From positions 1 to 64,000 of the forward strand of contig JBBFLE010000001.1 of NCBI GenBank assembly GCA_037481695.1: a DNA stretch of 64,000 nucleotides, read 5' to 3'. A program made the translations under genes and the position numbers. How positions within the stretch are numbered: the first letter of the stretch is position 1; each line of letters opens with the position of its first letter. Below the pieces are notes generated by a model, which saw only the letters and a program-made list of their open reading frames with translations, was not told where the DNA came from and searched no databases. This DNA is from a bacterium (GTDB taxonomy: Bacteria; Desulfobacterota; Desulfocorpusculales; Desulfocorpusculum). Positions 48,079 to 58,513 of this stretch are shown here, piece by piece.

Positions 48079-48900
48079 CTAAGGGATATTCTTCAGGCGC
48101 ACCTCCGCCATGCGAGCCTGCTCACTTTCCGGGTAATCTTTGCCCACCTTGGTGTACAGATATCTGGCACTTTCCAGATCACCCAGTTTCTCAAATGCCA
48201 TGCCCTGTTTGAACAGAGCTGCAGGCACCTTGGCAGACTTGGGATACTGAGAGATTACCTTTTCATATTCCAGGATGGCTTGCTTGAAGTTCCCTTCCCG
48301 AAAATAACACTCCCCTATCCAGAACTGAGCGTTATCCGCCAGATTGGAGTCCGGGAACCTGGAGACTACTGCCTGGAATCCCTCCCGAGCCTTTGCATTG
48401 TCCCCTTCCTCGAAGCGCACCATGGCATTCTTGTAAAGATCCTCAGCCTTCTCCACCACCGCTGGGGTACCAGGAGGCAAAGAATGGGGGGTCATTGGAG
48501 TTGTTCCAGGGGTGGGTGCAGCAGGGATATTCCCGCCCAGTTGTTCAACAGCCCTTTTCAAAGCATCCAGCTCCTGCCTGATCTGGGCCTGACTCCTTCT
48601 GATCTCATCACCCCCCACTCCCCTCTGTGACATACTTTCCACCTGTCCCCGAAGGGAAGCCACCTCCCTTTGCAGGGCTCCCATCTCGGCCATCTGGTCA
48701 GCCAACTGCTTGCTTCCTCTGGTACGTTCTGCCTGAAGCTCCTCAACCCTGCGCCTGAGATCCCTTATTTGCTGATCTTGCTGGGCCAACTCTCGGCGAA
48801 CCTCAACCTGAAAAGAACGAAAATCCCCTTCGGTGGCGCATCCAGCCACCCCCAAAACCAATATGATCCCAAGACATCTAACAGCGGTTAAGGTTCTCAT
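48079..48900 (-). CDS. cpoB: Tol-Pal coordination protein CpoB/YbgF, lipoprotein form
   Basis: 273 residues. The signal peptide ends in a lipobox (VAGC at about 18-21), so this form is probably membrane-anchored, unlike the soluble E. coli protein. A coiled-coil segment (about 27-110) is followed by a Pro/Thr-rich linker and three TPRs (about 150-270), including the AILEYEKVISQYPKSAKVPAAL type repeat. In E. coli CpoB coordinates Tol with peptidoglycan synthesis at division. Last gene of the tol-pal cluster. Confidence 0.92.
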   Translation of the reverse strand: MRTLTAVRCLGIILVLGVAGCATEGDFRSFQVEVRRELAQQDQQIRDLRRRVEELQAERTRGSKQLADQMAEMGALQREVASLRGQVESMSQRGVGGDEIRRSQAQIRQELDALKRAVEQLGGNIPAAPTPGTTPMTPHSLPPGTPAVVEKAEDLYKNAMVRFEEGDNAKAREGFQAVVSRFPDSNLADNAQFWIGECYFREGNFKQAILEYEKVISQYPKSAKVPAALFKQGMAFEKLGDLESARYLYTKVGKDYPESEQARMAEVRLKNIP

Positions 48901-48959
48901 GGCTCAGCACTCCTTCTTTGGAGCCTCCAAAGCCCTAAGCTTCCAGGCACGTGCAGTTC

Positions 48960-49517
48960 TTATCTGGAAACGATCACGAAGTGAGCCCTTCTGTTCTTGG
49001 CCCATGCCGCCTCATTATGGCCTGGGTCAATGGGTCTCTCTTTGCCGTAAGACACTGTGGAAATCCGACTCTCTGAAATCCCTAGCTGCACCAGGTATTG
49101 CTTGGCTGAGTTGGCCCTTCTTTCGCCCAAGGCAAGGTTATATTCGGCCGTGCCCCTCTCATCGCAATGACCTTCTATGAGAATCTTCACATTGGGATAC
49201 TGTTTCAGGAAGTAGGCCTTGTTTGCCAGAACCTCTCTGGCCCGGGCATTGAGGTCATACTTATCAAAATCAAAATAAATGTCCTCATTGGTGAAAGCAG
49301 CCTCAGCTTCTCTCCTTCGCCTCTCCTCAGCCGAGAGGCTTTCCTCCGTAGGCCTCCCGCCTATCACACCGGTGCCAGCTCTGTCGCCTGGCCTAGTCTC
49401 TGTGGGACTCACTACCCCTTCTTCTCCCTGTACAGCCTTCTTTGCACAGGATGTTCCCAGCCAAGGAAGCGCCGCAAGCATCAAAACAGCAAGAAACCAT
49501 AGAATACTCCTACGCAT
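48960..49517 (-). CDS. pal: Peptidoglycan-associated lipoprotein Pal
   Basis: Outer-membrane lipoprotein that binds peptidoglycan and TolB. I chose the ATG at 49517, which has AGGAGG upstream and opens a signal peptide with lipobox GTSC; a frame 24 codons longer is discarded. The C-terminal OmpA-like domain has DFDKYDLN and [24 protein letters not shown], with the Asp and Arg that bind diaminopimelate. About 185 residues. Confidence 0.95.
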
Positions 49518-49626
49518 TACCAACCTCCTTTCATTGCATCCCAAACGGGAAATCCTTAACATTCTCGAACCACCCCCATCGGGTGTCAAGATGGACCTTT
49601 ATGCCTCTTCTCATCGGCAGCCTTTC

Positions 49627-50979
49627 TCAATGCTCGTGAAGCCAGGGGGACCAGGCAGGCAGACTCTGTTCCCCGGCCATACGGGTTATCTGCACAGGAT
49701 TTTGACCGTTGAACAACATGATGTAGATCTGAGATCCCCCTGCCCTGGTGGAGCTAAAGGCAAGGTACCGACCGTCAGGGGACCAAGAGGGCGAATTGTC
49801 ACTGCCCGCTCCTTGGCTGAGCTGCAGCAGTTCCCTGCCGTCAGGCCGGATGGTGCAAATCCTGTAAGCCCCATTGAGCAGTGAGGAAAAGGCAATCCGA
49901 TCTCCCCTGGGGGACCAGGCAGGCTCTGAATTGTATTTCCCCTCGAAGGTTAGCCTTCTGGCCTGTCCCGAGGCCACATCCAAGATAAAAATCTGGGGCC
50001 CCCCTGCTCTGTCGGACACAAACGCCAAGGAACGCCCGTCAGGAGCCCAGCTGGGCGATACATCAATCCCGGGATGCTGGGTCAGCCTCTGGAGGATGTT
50101 GCCCGAGCGGTCTAGGAGATATAGCTCAGGGTTCCCGTGAACACTTAGGGTGGTTGCAATCTTGCTCCCATCGGGAGACCAGGCCGCAGGGCCGTTCATG
50201 TTCTCCCTGGCCGAGATGACCCTGCGTCTCAACCCATCAGGTTGTATTGAAAACAGGTGTGCGTTCGCCCCGGAATAAGAGATGAAGCCCAACTCCCTTC
50301 CATCTGGAGACCACCTGGGTGAAAGCACCAGATTCTTGTCCTGAGTCAGTTGGCGAAGGTCTTCGCCGTCTGCGTCCATGAGCATGAGTTCCTTGGCCCC
50401 GGAACGGTTGGAGATAAAGGCTATCTGGGTTTGAAAGATGCCTTGACTACCGGTGTAGTACTTCACTATCTCATCCACGAACCTATGGACCATTATCCTC
50501 ACATCTTGAACAGTCCCCCTGTACACCTTGCCAAAGAGCATTCTTCTTTGAGGTTGGTCATAAAGACGGGCCTCCCACCTTAGACTCCCTCCCTCCATGC
50601 TCATGCGACCGCCCACGACTATGTCGGCCCCAAGAAGCTTCACCACCTCGAAATCCACCTCTTTGGGCTCCAAGCCTTGCTTGAATGGATCAGCGAGGGC
50701 TTTGGAGGGATCCAGCACTTCGAAAAAACCCGAGATCCTCAGATCCTGGTTCAGGATGCGCTGAGCCTCCACAGAGGCATGGGAAGTCTCTGATCCCTCT
50801 GTCTTGAAAGGAAAAACACAAATGGGAAATCTCGGAATAGCGGGTCCGAATATGTCTATGACCACCTGTGCCTGAGCCTGGACCAGCCAAGTCAGGATCA
50901 GAAGGCCTCCCAGGAAAAAAGTAAGCAGCGCTCTCCTCACCTCTATCCTTTCTCCCATATCCCTTTTTTGAGAAACCAT
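49627..50979 (-). CDS. tolB: Tol-Pal system beta-propeller protein TolB
   Basis: Periplasmic protein that joins Pal and the Tol motor. A signal peptide ends in VQAQA. An N-terminal anticodon-binding-like domain (PAIPRFPICVFPF...) precedes six propeller blades with repeated SPDGR and FSSxRxG motifs. The start is uncertain between 50979 (used here) and 50958, both of which open the signal peptide. About 450 residues. Confidence 0.95.
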   Translation of the reverse strand: MVSQKRDMGERIEVRRALLTFFLGGLLILTWLVQAQAQVVIDIFGPAIPRFPICVFPFKTEGSETSHASVEAQRILNQDLRISGFFEVLDPSKALADPFKQGLEPKEVDFEVVKLLGADIVVGGRMSMEGGSLRWEARLYDQPQRRMLFGKVYRGTVQDVRIMVHRFVDEIVKYYTGSQGIFQTQIAFISNRSGAKELMLMDADGEDLRQLTQDKNLVLSPRWSPDGRELGFISYSGANAHLFSIQPDGLRRRVISARENMNGPAAWSPDGSKIATTLSVHGNPELYLLDRSGNILQRLTQHPGIDVSPSWAPDGRSLAFVSDRAGGPQIFILDVASGQARRLTFEGKYNSEPAWSPRGDRIAFSSLLNGAYRICTIRPDGRELLQLSQGAGSDNSPSWSPDGRYLAFSSTRAGGSQIYIMLFNGQNPVQITRMAGEQSLPAWSPWLHEH

Positions 50980-50995
50980 CTCTTCACTCAAGTCC

Positions 50996-51775
50996 TCATT
51001 GGGCCTTGGGCCCAAAAGGCCAGAAACGAAGCACCAGGGGCTTGTCCGCAATGGAGGCTGGTGGAGGGGGAAGGGTCACCTTGGTCAGGGCGCTCACAAT
51101 GGAGGAATCCACGTGGGATTTCCCAGAGCCTTTCAAGAAAACAAACTCCTTGATCCGCCCGTCCCCTGAGATCTGAATTCTTACCTCTCCCAGGACTCCG
51201 CTTTCCTCGGCCGGAACGTAGGCCCTCCAGCTCTCCTCTATCCGATCCTGAAGCATCTGAAGGTACCTGGCTTCCTCGGGTGTGAGTTTTCCTCCCCCAC
51301 CTCCCCCTGGTTGGCCAGCAGCCACCTTAGGACCAACCTCAGCGCCGCTAGGAGCATTGCCCTTGGCACCTGGCTGGCTCTTGGCAGCGGGTTCCTTGGG
51401 AAGCTCTATCTTTTGTGCTGGCTGAGTGCGCTCCGGCACCTTCACCTCTGTGGGTTGAATACTGACCGCTTTTCGCTCTGCCTGCGGCACAGGAATAGGA
51501 ATCCTGCTGGGAGTTGCCTTCTCTTGTGGAGCCGGCTGGCTCTGGCTTGGAGGGCTCTGCCCGCTGGTAGAAGGGCTCTGGACCATGGATGGTCCTGGCA
51601 GGGCCCCCACAAGTCTCACTGAAATGACCGAGGGATCCATGCTCCTACGGGGCACGTGTTTTTCGATGGCCACCACAGCCACAACCCCAGCAGCATGGAG
51701 CACCATGGAAAGGAATATCATCCAATGCCAGGCTGGATGTCCCTGCGAAGACCACCCATCTCCCCCTCGAATCAC
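50996..51775 (-). CDS. tolA: TolA/TonB-type energy-coupling protein
   Basis: 259 residues. One N-terminal membrane span (about 18-38), a Pro/Gln/Lys-rich periplasmic stretch (about 60-165), and a C-terminal TonB/TolA_C-like domain (DRIEESWRAYVPAEESGVLGEVRIQISGDG... SIVSAL). Its position between tolR and tolB identifies it as TolA. It is shorter than E. coli TolA (421) because the central helical domain is replaced by a Pro-rich one. It overlaps tolR by 4 bp. Confidence 0.9.
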   Translation of the reverse strand: MIRGGDGWSSQGHPAWHWMIFLSMVLHAAGVVAVVAIEKHVPRRSMDPSVISVRLVGALPGPSMVQSPSTSGQSPPSQSQPAPQEKATPSRIPIPVPQAERKAVSIQPTEVKVPERTQPAQKIELPKEPAAKSQPGAKGNAPSGAEVGPKVAAGQPGGGGGGKLTPEEARYLQMLQDRIEESWRAYVPAEESGVLGEVRIQISGDGRIKEFVFLKGSGKSHVDSSIVSALTKVTLPPPPASIADKPLVLRFWPFGPKAQ

Positions 51776-52191
51776 GGCCGCTTCCCCTCCAGAGGCTCTG
51801 TTACCATCCCTAGCTTTTCCACCCCGGACTCCCTCAATATGCCCATGAGAGCCATGACTTCCCCATAGGGAAGCGACTGATCGGCCCTAAGGAACACCTC
51901 TCGGTTCACCTTCCTGTCCAAGACCGCCTTGATCCTTTCCCGCAACTGCTCCTGAGCCACTTCGTACTTGTCAATGAAGAACTTGCGTTCTTTGGTGAGG
52001 GTCACCACAACCCTTTCCTCCTCAGAAGGCATGGGCTTGGTGGTAATCTTGGGCAGGTCCACGTCCACCCCCATCTGAAGCATGGGCGCGGTGATCATGA
52101 ATATGATGAGCAATACCAGGACCACATCCACAAGGGGCACCACATTTATCTCTGACATCATGGTACCAAACCGTTGCTGTGGGGCCGGCAT
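51772..52191 (-). CDS. tolR: Tol-Pal motor protein TolR (ExbD/TolR family)
   Basis: 139 residues. One membrane span carries the essential Asp22 (NVVPLVDVVLVLLIIFM) of the proton pathway, and a periplasmic domain follows. It is the partner of TolQ, whose stop is 23 bp upstream, and overlaps tolA by 4 bp. Confidence 0.95.
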   Translation of the reverse strand: MPAPQQRFGTMMSEINVVPLVDVVLVLLIIFMITAPMLQMGVDVDLPKITTKPMPSEEERVVVTLTKERKFFIDKYEVAQEQLRERIKAVLDRKVNREVFLRADQSLPYGEVMALMGILRESGVEKLGMVTEPLEGKRP

Positions 52192-52214
52192 CTGGGTTCC
52201 CCCTATTCATTTTT

Positions 52215-53051
52215 TCAGACGTGCAAGGATTGGCGCCGAGCACTCTCGTTTGTAGAGGCTCCCTCGGCACGTACCCGCCTGGGTCTTAGCTGTCTCTGGA
52301 CCAGATTCAAGAATTCCGTGGTGAACTGGTCCATCTCCGAGGCCACACCCCTTATGCGCTGTACAAAATAATTGTACGCCACCACAGCTGGGATGGCCGC
52401 TGCCAGTCCAGCAGCAGTGGCCACCAAGGCTTCTGAAATCCCAGGAGCCACTGTGGCCAGGGAGGCCGATCCCCTCATTCCTATCTCGTGGAAGGAGCGG
52501 ATTATACCTAGCACCGTGCCAAAGAGTCCCACAAAGGGAGCGGTGCTTCCTGTGGTGGCCAAGAACCCCAAGGCCCTTTCATACCTGTGTACCTGAAAGG
52601 CCCCCTCCTGCCTGACGGCCCGTTCAACGCTTTCCAGGCCTGTCCACTCCACCGCCAGGCGCGCGGGCTCCCTCACCACGCCCCCTTCCTGGGTCTTGGT
52701 TCCCGGCGGCGAGGCCGATATTCTAAGCAGCTCCCTGTAACCTTTCAGGAAGATGGCCGCAAAGGGGTTGTTCTGAAGCCCGTAGGCTTCCACATCTTTG
52801 TAGATAGCCGAAAAAGTGGGTTGCTGCTCGTAAGAACGGAAAAAAAGCTCGGTCTGCTTTCTGGTCCTGCGCAGGAGCATTATCTTGGCTGCTATGATGG
52901 CCCAAGAAATTATGGAGAAGCCGAGCAGGATGATCAAGACCATCCAGACCTCGGTTCCAGAGCCCCGGATGAGATCCAGCAGGCTCCATCGGGATTGAAC
53001 ACCCGGGGACCCCACCATCCCTAGACTCCACAAGGGCCACAAACCACCCAT
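52215..53051 (-). CDS. tolQ: Tol-Pal motor protein TolQ (ExbB/TolQ family)
   Basis: 278 residues with three membrane spans: about 35-58, about 170-195 in the FLATTGSTAPFVGLFGTVLGIIRSF region, and about 210-235 in ISEALVATAAGLAAAIPAVVAYN. The last two hold the conserved Thr and Ala residues that line the TolR helix. A GAGGGG site lies 8 nt before the ATG. It begins the classical tol block and follows the BamD-LptA fusion gene by 164 bp on the same strand. Confidence 0.95.
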   Translation of the reverse strand: MGGLWPLWSLGMVGSPGVQSRWSLLDLIRGSGTEVWMVLIILLGFSIISWAIIAAKIMLLRRTRKQTELFFRSYEQQPTFSAIYKDVEAYGLQNNPFAAIFLKGYRELLRISASPPGTKTQEGGVVREPARLAVEWTGLESVERAVRQEGAFQVHRYERALGFLATTGSTAPFVGLFGTVLGIIRSFHEIGMRGSASLATVAPGISEALVATAAGLAAAIPAVVAYNYFVQRIRGVASEMDQFTTEFLNLVQRQLRPRRVRAEGASTNESARRQSLHV

Positions 53052-53215: not shown

Positions 53216-55837
53216 TCAACTCTGAGTTGGCTTCCAGGTCTCTGCAACTATCTTCCATTGCCCGTTCTCATTTATTAGCTCCAGCTCCTTCCTTCCTTTG
53301 TCCTGGTGATGGTCTGCCCGGTAGTGCTGAAGAAAGGAAATCCTGAGCTTGTCACCCAGTTTTTTGGACTCCAGGCCCTCGGTGCTTACCTGGATGGACT
53401 GGGCCTTCTTGAAGGTAGCGGCCTTGTATGCCCGCCACCCCTTCCAGTCCATTGTTCCTGACTTGAATTTCTTGGAGTAAAACTCCATATACGCGTCTAT
53501 GTCCCTGGACTGCCAGGCCTTGCGCCACCTCTCCACAAAAGATGCCGCGGACTCGGTGGGAATGCCACTGCCAGAGGTACCTGGAGATGAACCCTTGGGA
53601 GCGGAGACTTCTTTGATGGCCTTTTGGGAAGGAGCTGTGCTGCTTGCTGCTATCCTGGCTGCTTCCTCCTCGGCGCGAAGGGAAGGAGCCGAGACAGCGG
53701 CTGCCTGGGGTGGAGCCGCATCTTGGGCTGGCTGAGTTTCCTTGCTTTCCAAATCCTTGCCTGGTTTCTGCGGCGCAGAAGAGGCAGCGGGCTTGCCTGA
53801 GAGTGTTGGGCTGGAAGCAGAAGCCAACTCCTGGGAAGGCTCCTTGGGTGCTTTAGGCTCCTGGGATGCCACTTGGGCAAAAGGCGCAGACAATCCAGGC
53901 CTGCTTTTGGGTTCCTTGGAGCCCTGAGCCTCTTCCTTGTCACCTTTTTGGGATTTGGGATGAAGTACGGCCGAAACCCTCTTTTCCTCACTTCCCACAA
54001 CCGTCATTTTCTCCTGATCCAGCTGGACCAAGACCTTCTCACCGTCAATCCAGTCTTTTCCCTGCCAGATCTTGGGGTTTCCGTGAAGCTCTATGGTTCG
54101 GCGCAGATGGTCGAACTCGGCCCTGTCGCACGTGGCCACCCGATCGTTCTGAGTGATCTTGACGTTGTCTTGAGCCACTACCTTTCTGATTCCACCTCCT
54201 TGCTCCTGAGGAGCCATATCAGCCACTATTTTTCGAGCATATAGGTAAGTCTCCTCTTGCTGGGCCACCACATTTCCTTCAAAAATCACCCGGTTCTCCC
54301 TTTGGAAAGCATCCATGCGGTCTGCTGTTATGTTTATGGGCTTATCGCTTCTAAGTTCACCGAAACCTACACCCTCTTCCTTGGCTTGAGATGATTTGCC
54401 TTTGCCCCCAGGACCCGAATTCCCACCGGCAGATTCGTGGGCCAGGGCCTTGTCCTGCCCTTCAGTTCTGGCTGCTGCTGCTTTGGGAGAACTCACCTGA
54501 GGTCCGGTCTCAACAACTGCCTGCCTGGAGGCAACTCTAATCTCTTGAGAAGAAGCTTTGGTGCGTTCTGGGGATAATGGTCTTGTCTCCTCTGCTTTTT
54601 CTGCCTTGGGATGATCCTCCAGAGGCTTCATATCAGACTTGGATTCCTTCTGCCCCCCTTCTTCTGGGGAGCCAGCGTCGGCGAGAGCCTCACTTTGCTT
54701 TGCAACTCTGGCCTGTTCATAAGTGGGGGGCTCAGACATGGCCCCTTGGGATGCCTGCTCCACCTTGGGAGGAGATGTTTGTTTGGCAGTATCAGGGGTG
54801 GTCTGGATGGCCTGGGAACTCAGATCCTGTGGCCCGGCCGTCTCCCTCGGGCTCTTGGGCCCGGTATCCTGAGTGGCCATACTCTTGGCAAGCTGTTCTT
54901 TTTCCTGGGCCATGGCAGGTTCTTGGCCAGAAATGGATTCTGCCGGGGCCACGGTAACATCCAATTCTTTGGAAGAGCTGGCTACAGCCTGTACAGGCTT
55001 CTCTGAGCCCTTAGGTTGCGAAGGGGCCGGGGGAGAGGAGGCCTGTTGAGGGGAAAGGGCCACATGTGCCAGATCCCCCTGCAAGAGCTTTTGGGCTTTT
55101 TGAGCATACTTGCCCTTGGGATACTGTTGGGAAAGCACCTGGAGGGTTCGAGCCGCTTTCTCCGGCTCCTTCACAGCCTGATAAGCCTCGGCCAGTTGAA
55201 AAAGCACCTCCTCATCCAAAGCAATGTTGGGGTACTTGGACAAGGCCGCCTCATACCTCTGTATGGCTGCCTGATATTTGTTCATCCGGAAGTAAAAATT
55301 CCCCACATATACCTCATGATCCGAGAGCTTCTTCATACACTCTTGGGCCTTTTGATAGGCATCATAAGCATAAGGAGTATCGGGGAAATGGGTCAGCAGG
55401 TAATGGAACTCGGCCAGGGCCTTTTCGGTCTCGCTTTGATCACGATCCACAGAGAGACTTCTGTGATAATGGCACATCCCCAACATGTAAACCACGTAAG
55501 GAATATAAGGACTGGCTGGGTGCATCTTACGAACTTCTTCATAACCCTCTGCAGCTTCGGCATATTCTTTGTTGGAGTAATGCGCGTCTGCGATTTTCAG
55601 GTCTGCCATGACTGCCGCAGCCTCTGAGGGGAAATCATATTTGAGCTTGTAGAAGGTCTCTATGGCCTGACGGTAGTTCTTCTGTTCCAATTGTGAGGTG
55701 CCCTGCTTGTAAAGCTCATCAGCGTTTTTTCCCTTGGGACTCTGGATGGGCTTGTCCAAGGAACAAGAAGATGATCCCACGGCAGCCACCAGGCAAACCC
55801 AAATTAGAAACCAGCTGCGCAAATTCATGATTCTCAC
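53216..55837 (-). CDS. Fusion of BamD-type TPR domain, LptA/OstA-type domain and NTF2-like domain
   Basis: 873 residues in one open frame. The N-terminal signal ends in SSSC25, an atypical lipobox with Ser at -3. Residues about 35-256 are BamD/YfiO-like TPRs (ADELYKQGTSQLEQKNYRQAIETFYKLKYDFP...). Residues 257-490 are a disordered Ser/Pro/Lys/Glu/Gln linker. Residues about 495-618 match LptA/OstA (SDKPINITADRMDAF...NRVIFEGNVVAQQEETYLYARKI). A second linker (619-755) leads to residues about 763-870, an NTF2/SnoaL-like domain of the type found as Cds6 at the end of some L,D-transpeptidases (VERWRKAWQSRDIDAYMEFYS... WKIVAETW). BamD assembles outer-membrane beta-barrels; LptA carries lipopolysaccharide across the periplasm. 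It has its own promoter and leads into tolQ. Confidence 0.88.
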   Translation of the reverse strand: MRIMNLRSWFLIWVCLVAAVGSSSCSLDKPIQSPKGKNADELYKQGTSQLEQKNYRQAIETFYKLKYDFPSEAAAVMADLKIADAHYSNKEYAEAAEGYEEVRKMHPASPYIPYVVYMLGMCHYHRSLSVDRDQSETEKALAEFHYLLTHFPDTPYAYDAYQKAQECMKKLSDHEVYVGNFYFRMNKYQAAIQRYEAALSKYPNIALDEEVLFQLAEAYQAVKEPEKAARTLQVLSQQYPKGKYAQKAQKLLQGDLAHVALSPQQASSPPAPSQPKGSEKPVQAVASSSKELDVTVAPAESISGQEPAMAQEKEQLAKSMATQDTGPKSPRETAGPQDLSSQAIQTTPDTAKQTSPPKVEQASQGAMSEPPTYEQARVAKQSEALADAGSPEEGGQKESKSDMKPLEDHPKAEKAEETRPLSPERTKASSQEIRVASRQAVVETGPQVSSPKAAAARTEGQDKALAHESAGGNSGPGGKGKSSQAKEEGVGFGELRSDKPINITADRMDAFQRENRVIFEGNVVAQQEETYLYARKIVADMAPQEQGGGIRKVVAQDNVKITQNDRVATCDRAEFDHLRRTIELHGNPKIWQGKDWIDGEKVLVQLDQEKMTVVGSEEKRVSAVLHPKSQKGDKEEAQGSKEPKSRPGLSAPFAQVASQEPKAPKEPSQELASASSPTLSGKPAASSAPQKPGKDLESKETQPAQDAAPPQAAAVSAPSLRAEEEAARIAASSTAPSQKAIKEVSAPKGSSPGTSGSGIPTESAASFVERWRKAWQSRDIDAYMEFYSKKFKSGTMDWKGWRAYKAATFKKAQSIQVSTEGLESKKLGDKLRISFLQHYRADHHQDKGRKELELINENGQWKIVAETWKPTQS

Positions 55838-55889: not shown

Positions 55890-55918
55890 ACCATATCGGA
55901 AATCCAGAATTTTGTCAA
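55890..55918 (-). promoter_or_regulatory. Strong sigma70-type promoter before the BamD-LptA-NTF2 gene
   Basis: On the minus strand: TTGACA, a 17-nt spacer, TATGGT, ending about 53 nt before the ATG. No other strong promoter was seen between it and tolQ, so it may drive the fusion gene and the tol-pal genes together. The remaining part of the 387-bp gap (55838-56224) holds nothing else I can name. Confidence 0.7.
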
Positions 55919-56224
55919 ATTTCGGCCCCGAATCTAAAGTAATTGATGAGAGTTACCCTCTTGTCCAGGACTCCTTTTCCAAGCCCCATGGAATCAACTA
56001 TGGGGGCCATGCCCATCGAGATCTTTGACACCCTTGAGTGTATGGCGGATTACATCGCCCCCTCAAAGAACCCTCCTGCCTGCTTTGGGCAACCCATGGC
56101 ATTTCGTCAAAGGTTTCATATGGTTTAAATTGATTTCCCATGCTTCAGGGTCTATACTCTTTATCCCAACTCTGTGAGTGATCTTAAAGCCCCAGCCATG
56201 GGGCTTGGGGCCCGGTGGAATGAG

Positions 56225-58513
56225 ATGGCCAATCCTGTAGTCAGTCAACCTGCGACACCCGAGGAGTTGGTGCGCCTCCTTACAGTGGCCACCCGAAATC
56301 TGTCCATGTATTCCCAGGAACATCCGGCCTTTCAAAGATCCCTGGAGAAGGTGGCAGAGGTGCTGGGAAAAATCCTTGAAAGCCGTGACACAATACACCT
56401 GCAGGCCACCAGGGAACATCTCATGGTAGACGGGCGACTGCTCCCCCCAACTCCCCTGTTGAAGTCTTTTGCTTCGGATCTTCTCAAGAGAGGCATCCAG
56501 GCAATGGCGATTTCCAAAGGGGTGGAGCCTGCAGAACTGGCGCTGCTGGTGGAGTTCTTGGGAAGACGTCTTGTTGAGGGAGCTGAACTGCCTTCCTACG
56601 AGCAGCAACTGCGTCTCAAGGGAGTCAGCCACATCAGAATTCATCCCATTCGGCCCAGTCCCCTTGAAACATTCCCCATCGGCGAGGCCCTTCTGGCAAA
56701 GGTCCTTTCGGGTGAGGGAGCCGAAAAGGGAGACCGAGATGCTCTTGCCGAGTACCTGCTGAGGGATCCTCAGGGTGTGGGAAGGGCCCTTTCCCAAGGC
56801 ATTTCCAAGGCCAGCAATGAGCCTGGGGAGCGTGCCAGGTGGGCGGCAGAAAGACTCCTGTTGCTCCTGGAAGATCTTCTGGAGGGTCGCCCCGAGCAGT
56901 GGGAGGTCTTCAGGGACAGACTGGCCCAAGTGGTACTTGGAGTTGAGCTGGATGCCCAGGTGGATTTTTTCCATTTGGCTTGTGCACAAGGCGGAAACCT
57001 GGCCGTCTGGGCAAGGGATCTGGCCCAAAAAATGCCTTCCCAAGCACTGGCAGAGGTCTTGGCCAGAAATCTGACCCAAGACAAAGAGACTCCAAAGAAA
57101 AAAGAGCTCGTCAAATATCTGCTCGGTGACCAGCCCTCCATAACCAAGCTCCTTCCAGAACTGGAGCGCAAGCTGGCCGATTACGGGGTTTCCAAGGAGG
57201 ATTTCCTCAAGCTCCTGGAAGAGGAACCCCTGGGCGCACTGGATAGAGCCATGCTCTTTCTGCAGGGCTCTCCTCTCACCACCCAACTGGCCCTGGAGGT
57301 ACCAGCCCTTGCGAGGGAACTCTTGGAGGGCGGCCGCAAAGAAGAGGCTCTCAGGGTCATAAAGCGTTTTCTCAACGGCCTCAATCATACCCAATGGGAG
57401 ATTCGCAAGGCCGTGGCAGAAGGAATAGCAGAGCTGCAGGCTCTTCTGGAACAATTGCCTGGATCTGGCCGGATACAGGAGCAGGTAAGCCAGTTTCTCA
57501 TGAAGAAGGCCCTTCATGAGCCAGACAAGGAGGTTTTCAGGTTCCTGTTTGAAGCCTTGGAGGAGAGGGCCCTGGGTCTCATATCCAAAGACCAGTTTCA
57601 GGAGGCCTTGAGCCTTCTGCAGGATCTGTACAGCGCCCCAGGCGTGGAGACCTTGGAGCCCTCTTATCTGGCAGGCAGAAAAGACCAGCTCAGGCGAAGA
57701 CTTGTTCCCACCCCTTTTCTGGATGAGGCCTGTGCAAAAATCATAAGTGATGTGGAAAATGATTTCCTGCAAGGCATCATGGCCGTGCGCCTCTTGGGGG
57801 AGGAAGGAGCTCGTAAGATCATAGAACTCCTCGGGGAAGAAAAACAGCTGAGCAAGAGGTTCCGCCTCATGAAGGCTCTTAGGGAAATGGGAGAGCATGC
57901 TTTGGAGCCCATCAAGAAAGGGCTCCTGGACCCCAGATGGTATCTGGTGAGAAACCTGGCCATGGTATTGGGAGAGCTCAAGGATCCCAGAGCCGTCAAC
58001 CCCCTGCTGGGCCTCATGGGACACACGGATCCCAGGGTGCGAAGGGAAGCAATCTACGCTCTGGGCAGCATAGGCCACCCCAAGGCTGCCGAGGCAGCCA
58101 CAAAGGCTTTGGAGGACGAGGACGAGGGGGTCCGGTTGAAGGCAGTGGAGGTCCTCAAGAGCCTGGGAAGCAGGGAAGCAATTGAAAGAATTCGCTCCCT
58201 GATTTCTCGAGGAAGCACAAGGGGCAGCGCAGATGCGCAAATGCGTCTCAAGGCTTTGAGAGCCTTGGCGGAACTTGGGCAGGAAGAAGATGTTCCATTG
58301 ATACAGGAACTCATCTCCAGAAAAAGGTTTTTCCTCAGGGCCGAGAGTGAAGAGGTCAGAAAGGAGGCTGTCTTGGCCCTGGCCGGAATCTTCCGTAGGA
58401 CAAGTTCCGCCCTTGCCCTCAAGAGCTTGGAAGATGCTGCTGGGTCTGACCCCAGCCCTGTGGTAAGGGACACTGCCCAAAAGGCTATGAATCGCAAGGG
58501 TGGCCCCGCCTGA
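56225..58513 (+). CDS. HEAT-repeat protein, unknown function
   Basis: About 762 residues from the ATG at 56225 (GGTGG 6 nt upstream); GTG and ATG codons further upstream are less likely. It has no signal peptide or membrane span. The C-terminal third (about 520-755) has regular HEAT/PBS-lyase repeats (for example PRAVNPLLGLMGHTDPRVRREAIYALGSIGHPKAAEA). The N-terminal two thirds are helical and less regular. HEAT arrays are protein-binding scaffolds. It lies alone on the plus strand, convergent with the radical SAM gene. Similar large HEAT proteins of unknown role are common in Desulfobacterota. Confidence 0.88.
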   Translation: MANPVVSQPATPEELVRLLTVATRNLSMYSQEHPAFQRSLEKVAEVLGKILESRDTIHLQATREHLMVDGRLLPPTPLLKSFASDLLKRGIQAMAISKGVEPAELALLVEFLGRRLVEGAELPSYEQQLRLKGVSHIRIHPIRPSPLETFPIGEALLAKVLSGEGAEKGDRDALAEYLLRDPQGVGRALSQGISKASNEPGERARWAAERLLLLLEDLLEGRPEQWEVFRDRLAQVVLGVELDAQVDFFHLACAQGGNLAVWARDLAQKMPSQALAEVLARNLTQDKETPKKKELVKYLLGDQPSITKLLPELERKLADYGVSKEDFLKLLEEEPLGALDRAMLFLQGSPLTTQLALEVPALARELLEGGRKEEALRVIKRFLNGLNHTQWEIRKAVAEGIAELQALLEQLPGSGRIQEQVSQFLMKKALHEPDKEVFRFLFEALEERALGLISKDQFQEALSLLQDLYSAPGVETLEPSYLAGRKDQLRRRLVPTPFLDEACAKIISDVENDFLQGIMAVRLLGEEGARKIIELLGEEKQLSKRFRLMKALREMGEHALEPIKKGLLDPRWYLVRNLAMVLGELKDPRAVNPLLGLMGHTDPRVRREAIYALGSIGHPKAAEAATKALEDEDEGVRLKAVEVLKSLGSREAIERIRSLISRGSTRGSADAQMRLKALRALAELGQEEDVPLIQELISRKRFFLRAESEEVRKEAVLALAGIFRRTSSALALKSLEDAAGSDPSPVVRDTAQKAMNRKGGPA

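Follow-up and report, generated by a model that had tools for sequence, protein, structure and literature searches.

The locus described here raises the question of whether one polypeptide can join two machines of the outer membrane, and of whether such a polypeptide replaces the separate proteins that it resembles or is added to them. BamD is a core component of the machine that builds outer-membrane proteins (BAM), which is usually seen as separate from the Lpt machine and linked to it only through the folding of LptD by BAM. The jellyroll domains of Lpt proteins dock edge to edge, and LptD, the protein folded by BAM, has an N-terminal jellyroll of its own. How cells keep the insertion of proteins and of lipopolysaccharide (LPS) in step is to our knowledge an open question. 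In the window (the whole stretch of 64,000 nucleotides analyzed) a single gene encodes a BamD-type, an LptA-type, and an NTF2-type domain in one chain, which according to the original prediction might be either a physical link between protein insertion and lipid transport or a protein with a new task near the cell wall.

Searches were performed in the genome of the window (4.10 Mb, 52 contigs, completeness 100), in 59 relatives, and, using an LptA-domain profile, in 395 genomes of one phylum, after which domains were assigned in the fetched loci. The genomes were mostly draft assemblies, and families are given as codes.

The fusion gene is one intact minus-strand frame (53216-55837 of the window), 873 codons long when counted from the GTG at 55837, in the order BamD-linker-LptA-linker-NTF2, which bears out the single uninterrupted 873-codon frame predicted originally. 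An ATG three codons past the GTG (55826-55828; 870 aa) appears to be the more likely start because of an AGGTGA-like ribosome site upstream of it. A promoter-like TTGACA-17-TATGGT lies upstream of the gene on the same strand (55890..55918) and is named as such from a consensus match only (10 of 12 positions). The gene is divergent from one for a 779-residue HEAT-repeat-like protein (56174-58513). The complete cluster that begins 164 bp downstream of it on the minus strand (48079..53051), which from our reading of the sequences we take to be tolQ-tolR-tolA/TonB-like-tolB-pal-cpoB, is mentioned as context.

Each of the three domains (all coordinates on the minus strand) was recognized by profile searches. 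The BamD (YfiO) region, a TPR block (residues 11-244; 55106..55807), matches TIGR03302 over the whole length of the model (1.5e-62; 211.2 bits against a curated cut-off of 81.4) and Pfam YfiO (PF13525; 7.6e-37), and among solved structures it groups with known BamDs (1.6e-25 to the Neisseria chain 9cmw_D). The LptA-type domain (residues 494-628; 53954..54358) scores 76.7 bits with TIGR03002 (residues 497-628), against an LptA equivalog cut-off of 71.7, and 1.2e-15 with PF03968 (residues 502-609); in a family-profile search its nearest solved relative is E. coli LptA (1.7e-16), followed by LptD (1e-3). The NTF2-like domain (residues 764-872; 53222..53548) matches the Cds6_C model PF24125 (6.2e-20; residues 766-866). 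With these E-values chance matches are excluded for all three domains, the profile calls agree with the domain boundaries proposed earlier, and the concern that the middle region might have no OstA profile match was dispelled by the matches to both PF03968 and TIGR03002.

Between the domains lie two poorly conserved linkers, linker 1 of about 241 residues (54359..55081, minus strand; 83% P/E/K/Q/S/A/T/G/D/N), modeled at low confidence, and linker 2 of about 135 residues (53549..53953, minus strand), unstructured in the model, so that the disordered stretches of about 235 and 140 residues anticipated from the sequence were found much as described. An assembly join within linker repeats, the other doubt attached to the original prediction, was rejected: the linkers have no repeats beyond two trivial short ones, and the identical three-domain order recurs on independent contigs in two other genera of the window's family f1 (L039 and L040/L037; L037 is contig JAPWUY010000098.1 of Thermodesulfobacteriota bacterium RSWS15). 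The fusion is neither an assembly artefact nor a one-off.

The AlphaFold model of the full-length protein has good confidence only for the C-terminal half of the TPR block and for the NTF2 domain, the latter despite a shallow alignment. The LptA domain modeled separately was poor (pLDDT 41, from a two-sequence alignment), and its LptA-type fold is therefore assigned from the profiles. At the N-terminus, Cys25 (55763..55765, minus strand) is the predicted lipidation site and is invariant in the alignment of fused proteins (13/13). The lipobox in the window itself, SSSC, is a weak one, and that of the relatives is canonical, LASC or LSSC. By these features, read from sequence, the fused BamD is a predicted lipoprotein with a signal peptide and a lipidated cysteine.

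Whether the fusion is a replacement or an addition was to be decided, according to the original prediction, by stand-alone bamD and lptA genes in the same genome. TIGR03302 and PF13525 found no second full BamD in the window's genome, the remaining matches being CpoB-like or other TPR proteins (the tol-pal cluster supplies the next-best one, its CpoB-like protein). LptA is also encoded separately (173 residues), in the canonical lptC-lptA-lptB order, its neighbors being an LptC-like protein and LptB and a KdsD-like gene lying upstream. The fusion thus replaces BamD and adds to LptA. The genome also encodes an LptD of 742 residues and a BamA with five POTRAs; BamE was not found in it.

The same holds far beyond this genome. 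Single frames joining BamD to the LptA-type domain occur in 51 of the genomes sampled, which belong to at least nine families (f1, f8, f9, f11, f13, f23, f24, f42, f54), the three-domain form occurring in f1 and the two-domain form in at least eight further families, as the search for the architecture in relatives that was suggested earlier brought out. It is the BamD-LptA pair that is widespread, the NTF2 domain having been added locally. In every one of the fusion genomes (51/51) the fused frame, at 166-234 bits, stands alone as a full-length match to BamD, and a separate LptA frame is present in 48/51, together with LptD-type frames; a general replacement of stand-alone LptA was rejected on this count. 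The stand-alone LptA-type frames of f24 and f54 are longer than usual (about 303-332 residues), and genomes of f8 (e.g., G209:C219, G230:C25) encode, alongside BamD, TPR proteins of about 1000 residues in which several stretches resemble BamD.

In phylogenetic trees (102 LptA domains; 77 BamDs) the fused sequences cluster strongly, with four changes needed on each tree, and the AU test did not reject a single clade of all fused sequences for either domain (p 0.505 for LptA; p 0.256 for BamD). For the LptA domains the single-clade constraint came at no cost. One old fusion followed by losses, or a few fusions, would be possible histories. The neighbors of the fusion gene are tolQ-R-A-B-pal-cpoB in the window, dapL and ffh in f8, rimO and fabF in f11, mtnA in f9 and f42, and a hotdog-fold thioesterase with an RsmG-like gene in f24 and f54; no link to lpt genes was seen in these neighborhoods. 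Because they differ among families, an operon explanation was rejected, and it is the physical link that is conserved. No description of a BamD-LptA fusion was found in the open-access literature searched.

In a comparison with E. coli LptA, each of the 49 distinct fused domains retains hydrophobic residues at the core and groove positions, the equivalents of I36, I38, and Y114 among them (49/49); I36 and Y114 are reported LPS-crosslinking sites in E. coli LptA (PMC5575297; PMC10794137). The fused domain is 26-44% identical to stand-alone LptA. Its N-terminal edge is kept, whereas its C-terminal edge is consistently changed relative to the stand-alone LptA of the phylum: in the last strands, the site equivalent to E. 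coli M150 is hydrophobic in 49/49 fused domains and Ser/Thr in 35/41 stand-alone proteins. The docking partner may therefore differ from that of LptA. In family f8 the dN/dS of the LptA domain (0.03-0.16) compares with 0.035-0.13 for BamD and 0.11-0.26 for the linker; purifying selection acts on the fused domain as strongly as on BamD. Within f1 the amino acid identity is 75-86% for the fused LptA domain, 66-82% for BamD, and 40-58% for the separate LptA encoded in those genomes. In this family stand-alone LptA (L003:1363-1884 compared with L134 and L135) evolves much faster than the domain fused to BamD.

The NTF2-like domain was found on the fusion in f1, the window's own family, only, and the copy on the fusion is the only Cds6_C domain found in the window's genome. 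Among solved structures it resembles Bdellovibrio Bd1075 (1.2e-15), onto which the modeled domain was superposed by Foldseek (7o21; rmsd 1.3 A). Y839 and W868, which align to Y274 and W303 of Bd1075, are also present in both other f1 sequences. No YkuD or other catalytic domain was matched by Pfam across the 873 residues. This likeness and the two residues make a wall-targeting role plausible, and the earlier suggestion of a task near the cell wall had support for this f1-specific third domain, which matches the NTF2 targeting domain of Bd1075, and for no other part of the chain. In genome G032 a BamD gene is followed after 8 bp by a gene for a 133-residue NTF2-like (DUF4440) protein (L058:6034-7232), an arrangement that may be the unfused equivalent of BamD joined to NTF2. 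Two Cds6_C-like NTF2 stretches in one frame were seen in relatives, in proteins of about 484-503 residues (G051:C196, G040:C93, G034:C108).

Another domain was found on both BAM and Lpt proteins. In f34, f69, f75, and f98 the canonical LptA of the lpt locus carries an extra FlgO/CsgG-like N-terminal domain (e.g., L102:4938-6242, L101:4132-5274, L100:5667-6965), and in the BamA of the window's genome (L174:3176-5827) a FlgO/CsgG-like domain precedes the POTRAs (26 bits for the profile match; the highest-scoring of 200 shuffles reached 4.3). A genome search with a FlgO/CsgG-like profile returned LptA-sized and BamA-sized frames plus a third class of about 440-670 residues. This sharing would agree with some mixing of the two machines in the phylum, and we give it little weight because the domain type is common and the search profile contained the window's own BamA.

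From this material we infer a docking partner, lipid binding, coupling, and wall targeting as follows. The lipid anchor and the TPR block would keep the chain at the outer membrane, on BamA. The linker, disordered judging by its make-up, would let the LptA-type domain explore the nearby periplasm; across the fusions linker 1 keeps a low-complexity composition and ranges from 27 residues (f11) to 302 residues (f13), which implies no fixed geometry and makes a rigid bridge unlikely. The tethered domain would dock edge to edge with another Lpt jellyroll (the one at the N-terminus of LptD, or free LptA at its C-terminal edge), or would hold LPS in its own groove, or both, and Lpt parts or LPS would thereby gather where barrels fold. 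In f1 the NTF2 domain of the Bd1075 kind would probably position the complex along the cell wall. We consider the chances about evenly balanced that the protein is such a BamD, with a jellyroll tethered to BAM on which Lpt parts (LptD or LptA) and/or LPS dock by the barrel-folding site and with wall positioning in f1. Of the link between protein insertion and lipid transport proposed originally, the joining of a BAM component to an Lpt-type domain stands by sequence, and coupling to LPS transport would be its putative consequence. More tentatively, a branch of the phylum might have hard-wired BAM to LPS export, the LptA-type domain of BamD gathering LptD, LptA, or LPS at a shared entry site that the NTF2 domain ties to the wall in one family.

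The main rival holds that the LptA-type domain was recruited in this lineage as an accessory of BAM and plays no part in LPS transport, serving as a beta-rich platform for unfolded barrel strands or a prop for BamA/BamD and taking the place of BamB, BamC, or BamE, which the lineage seems to lack. It would fit the missing BamE in the search of the window's genome, the divergence of the fused domain from stand-alone LptA in overall identity and at position 150, and the idea of replacement subunits put forward by Anwari et al. (2012; PMC3359395), who reported no evidence of BamB, BamC, and BamE in delta-proteobacteria. We regard it as rather unlikely, however: the groove hydrophobics, LPS-contact positions included, are kept as in LptA, and a tether of such variable length suits recruitment better than a fixed structural prop. 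The hydrophobic groove is one without a known ligand, and it could instead bind another envelope lipid or glycan (a phospholipid, or a lipid of a Tol-Pal or AsmA-type route) for lipid balance near BAM, which the Tol-Pal neighborhood would reflect. In the window tolQ follows on the same strand at the distance given above, and our scan of that strand showed no terminator-like site in the gap; such adjacency was not seen in the annotated neighborhoods of other families, and we consider this explanation improbable.

A further explanation, somewhat more doubtful still, is that in some genomes the LPS bridge ends at the outer membrane with the fused domain in the place of stand-alone LptA. Three genomes (G080, G251, G081) do combine the fusion and an LptD-type frame with no match to a separate LptA, but all three are fragmented assemblies in which the gene may have been lost in assembly, and separate LptA is otherwise the rule. 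Finally, the fusion might be near-neutral, with the LptA domain a passenger that is kept since BamD cannot be lost. The large variation in linker length would agree with this, whereas an equally low dN/dS in the LptA domain and in BamD, and the retention of the LptA domain across families with very different linkers and neighborhoods, speak against it; it is already disfavored by the selection data, and we hold it to be very improbable.

For the reading that we prefer, of a BamD with a tethered jellyroll that may dock Lpt parts or LPS, the significance of the locus lies in a covalent BamD-LptA chain that is conserved and subject to strong purifying selection, by which a direct coupling of BAM and Lpt becomes testable. 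The fusion is also a candidate for the additions to BAM that lineages without BamB, BamC, and BamE are expected to have. Compared with known BamD/YfiO proteins (TIGR03302; solved in E. coli, Neisseria, and Rhodothermus) it shares the lipoprotein anchor, the TPR block, and the position as the only BamD of its genome, but known BamDs stop after the TPRs, whereas this one goes on into a long linker and an LptA-type domain and, here, an NTF2 domain. With the LptA/LptH/OstA jellyroll (TIGR03002, PF03968) it has in common the full domain length, the groove hydrophobics, and a score over the LptA equivalog cut-off; LptA, however, is a free periplasmic protein encoded beside lptC/lptB, while the fused domain sits on BamD, outside the lpt locus, in genomes where canonical LptA coexists, and bears a hydrophobic residue where the stand-alone LptA of the phylum mostly has Ser/Thr. 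The LD-carboxypeptidases Csd6, Pgp2, and Bd1075 share with the fusion the NTF2-like Cds6_C domain, in which the fusion has equivalents of Y274 and W303 of Bd1075, but combine it with a YkuD catalytic domain, in the place of which the fusion has BamD and LptA. BamF and other lineage-specific BAM lipoproteins (Anwari et al., 2012; PMC3359395) resemble it in the idea that lineages without BamB, BamC, and BamE evolve their own additions to BAM; BamF is a separate lipoprotein, whereas the addition in the window is an Lpt-type domain joined covalently to BamD.
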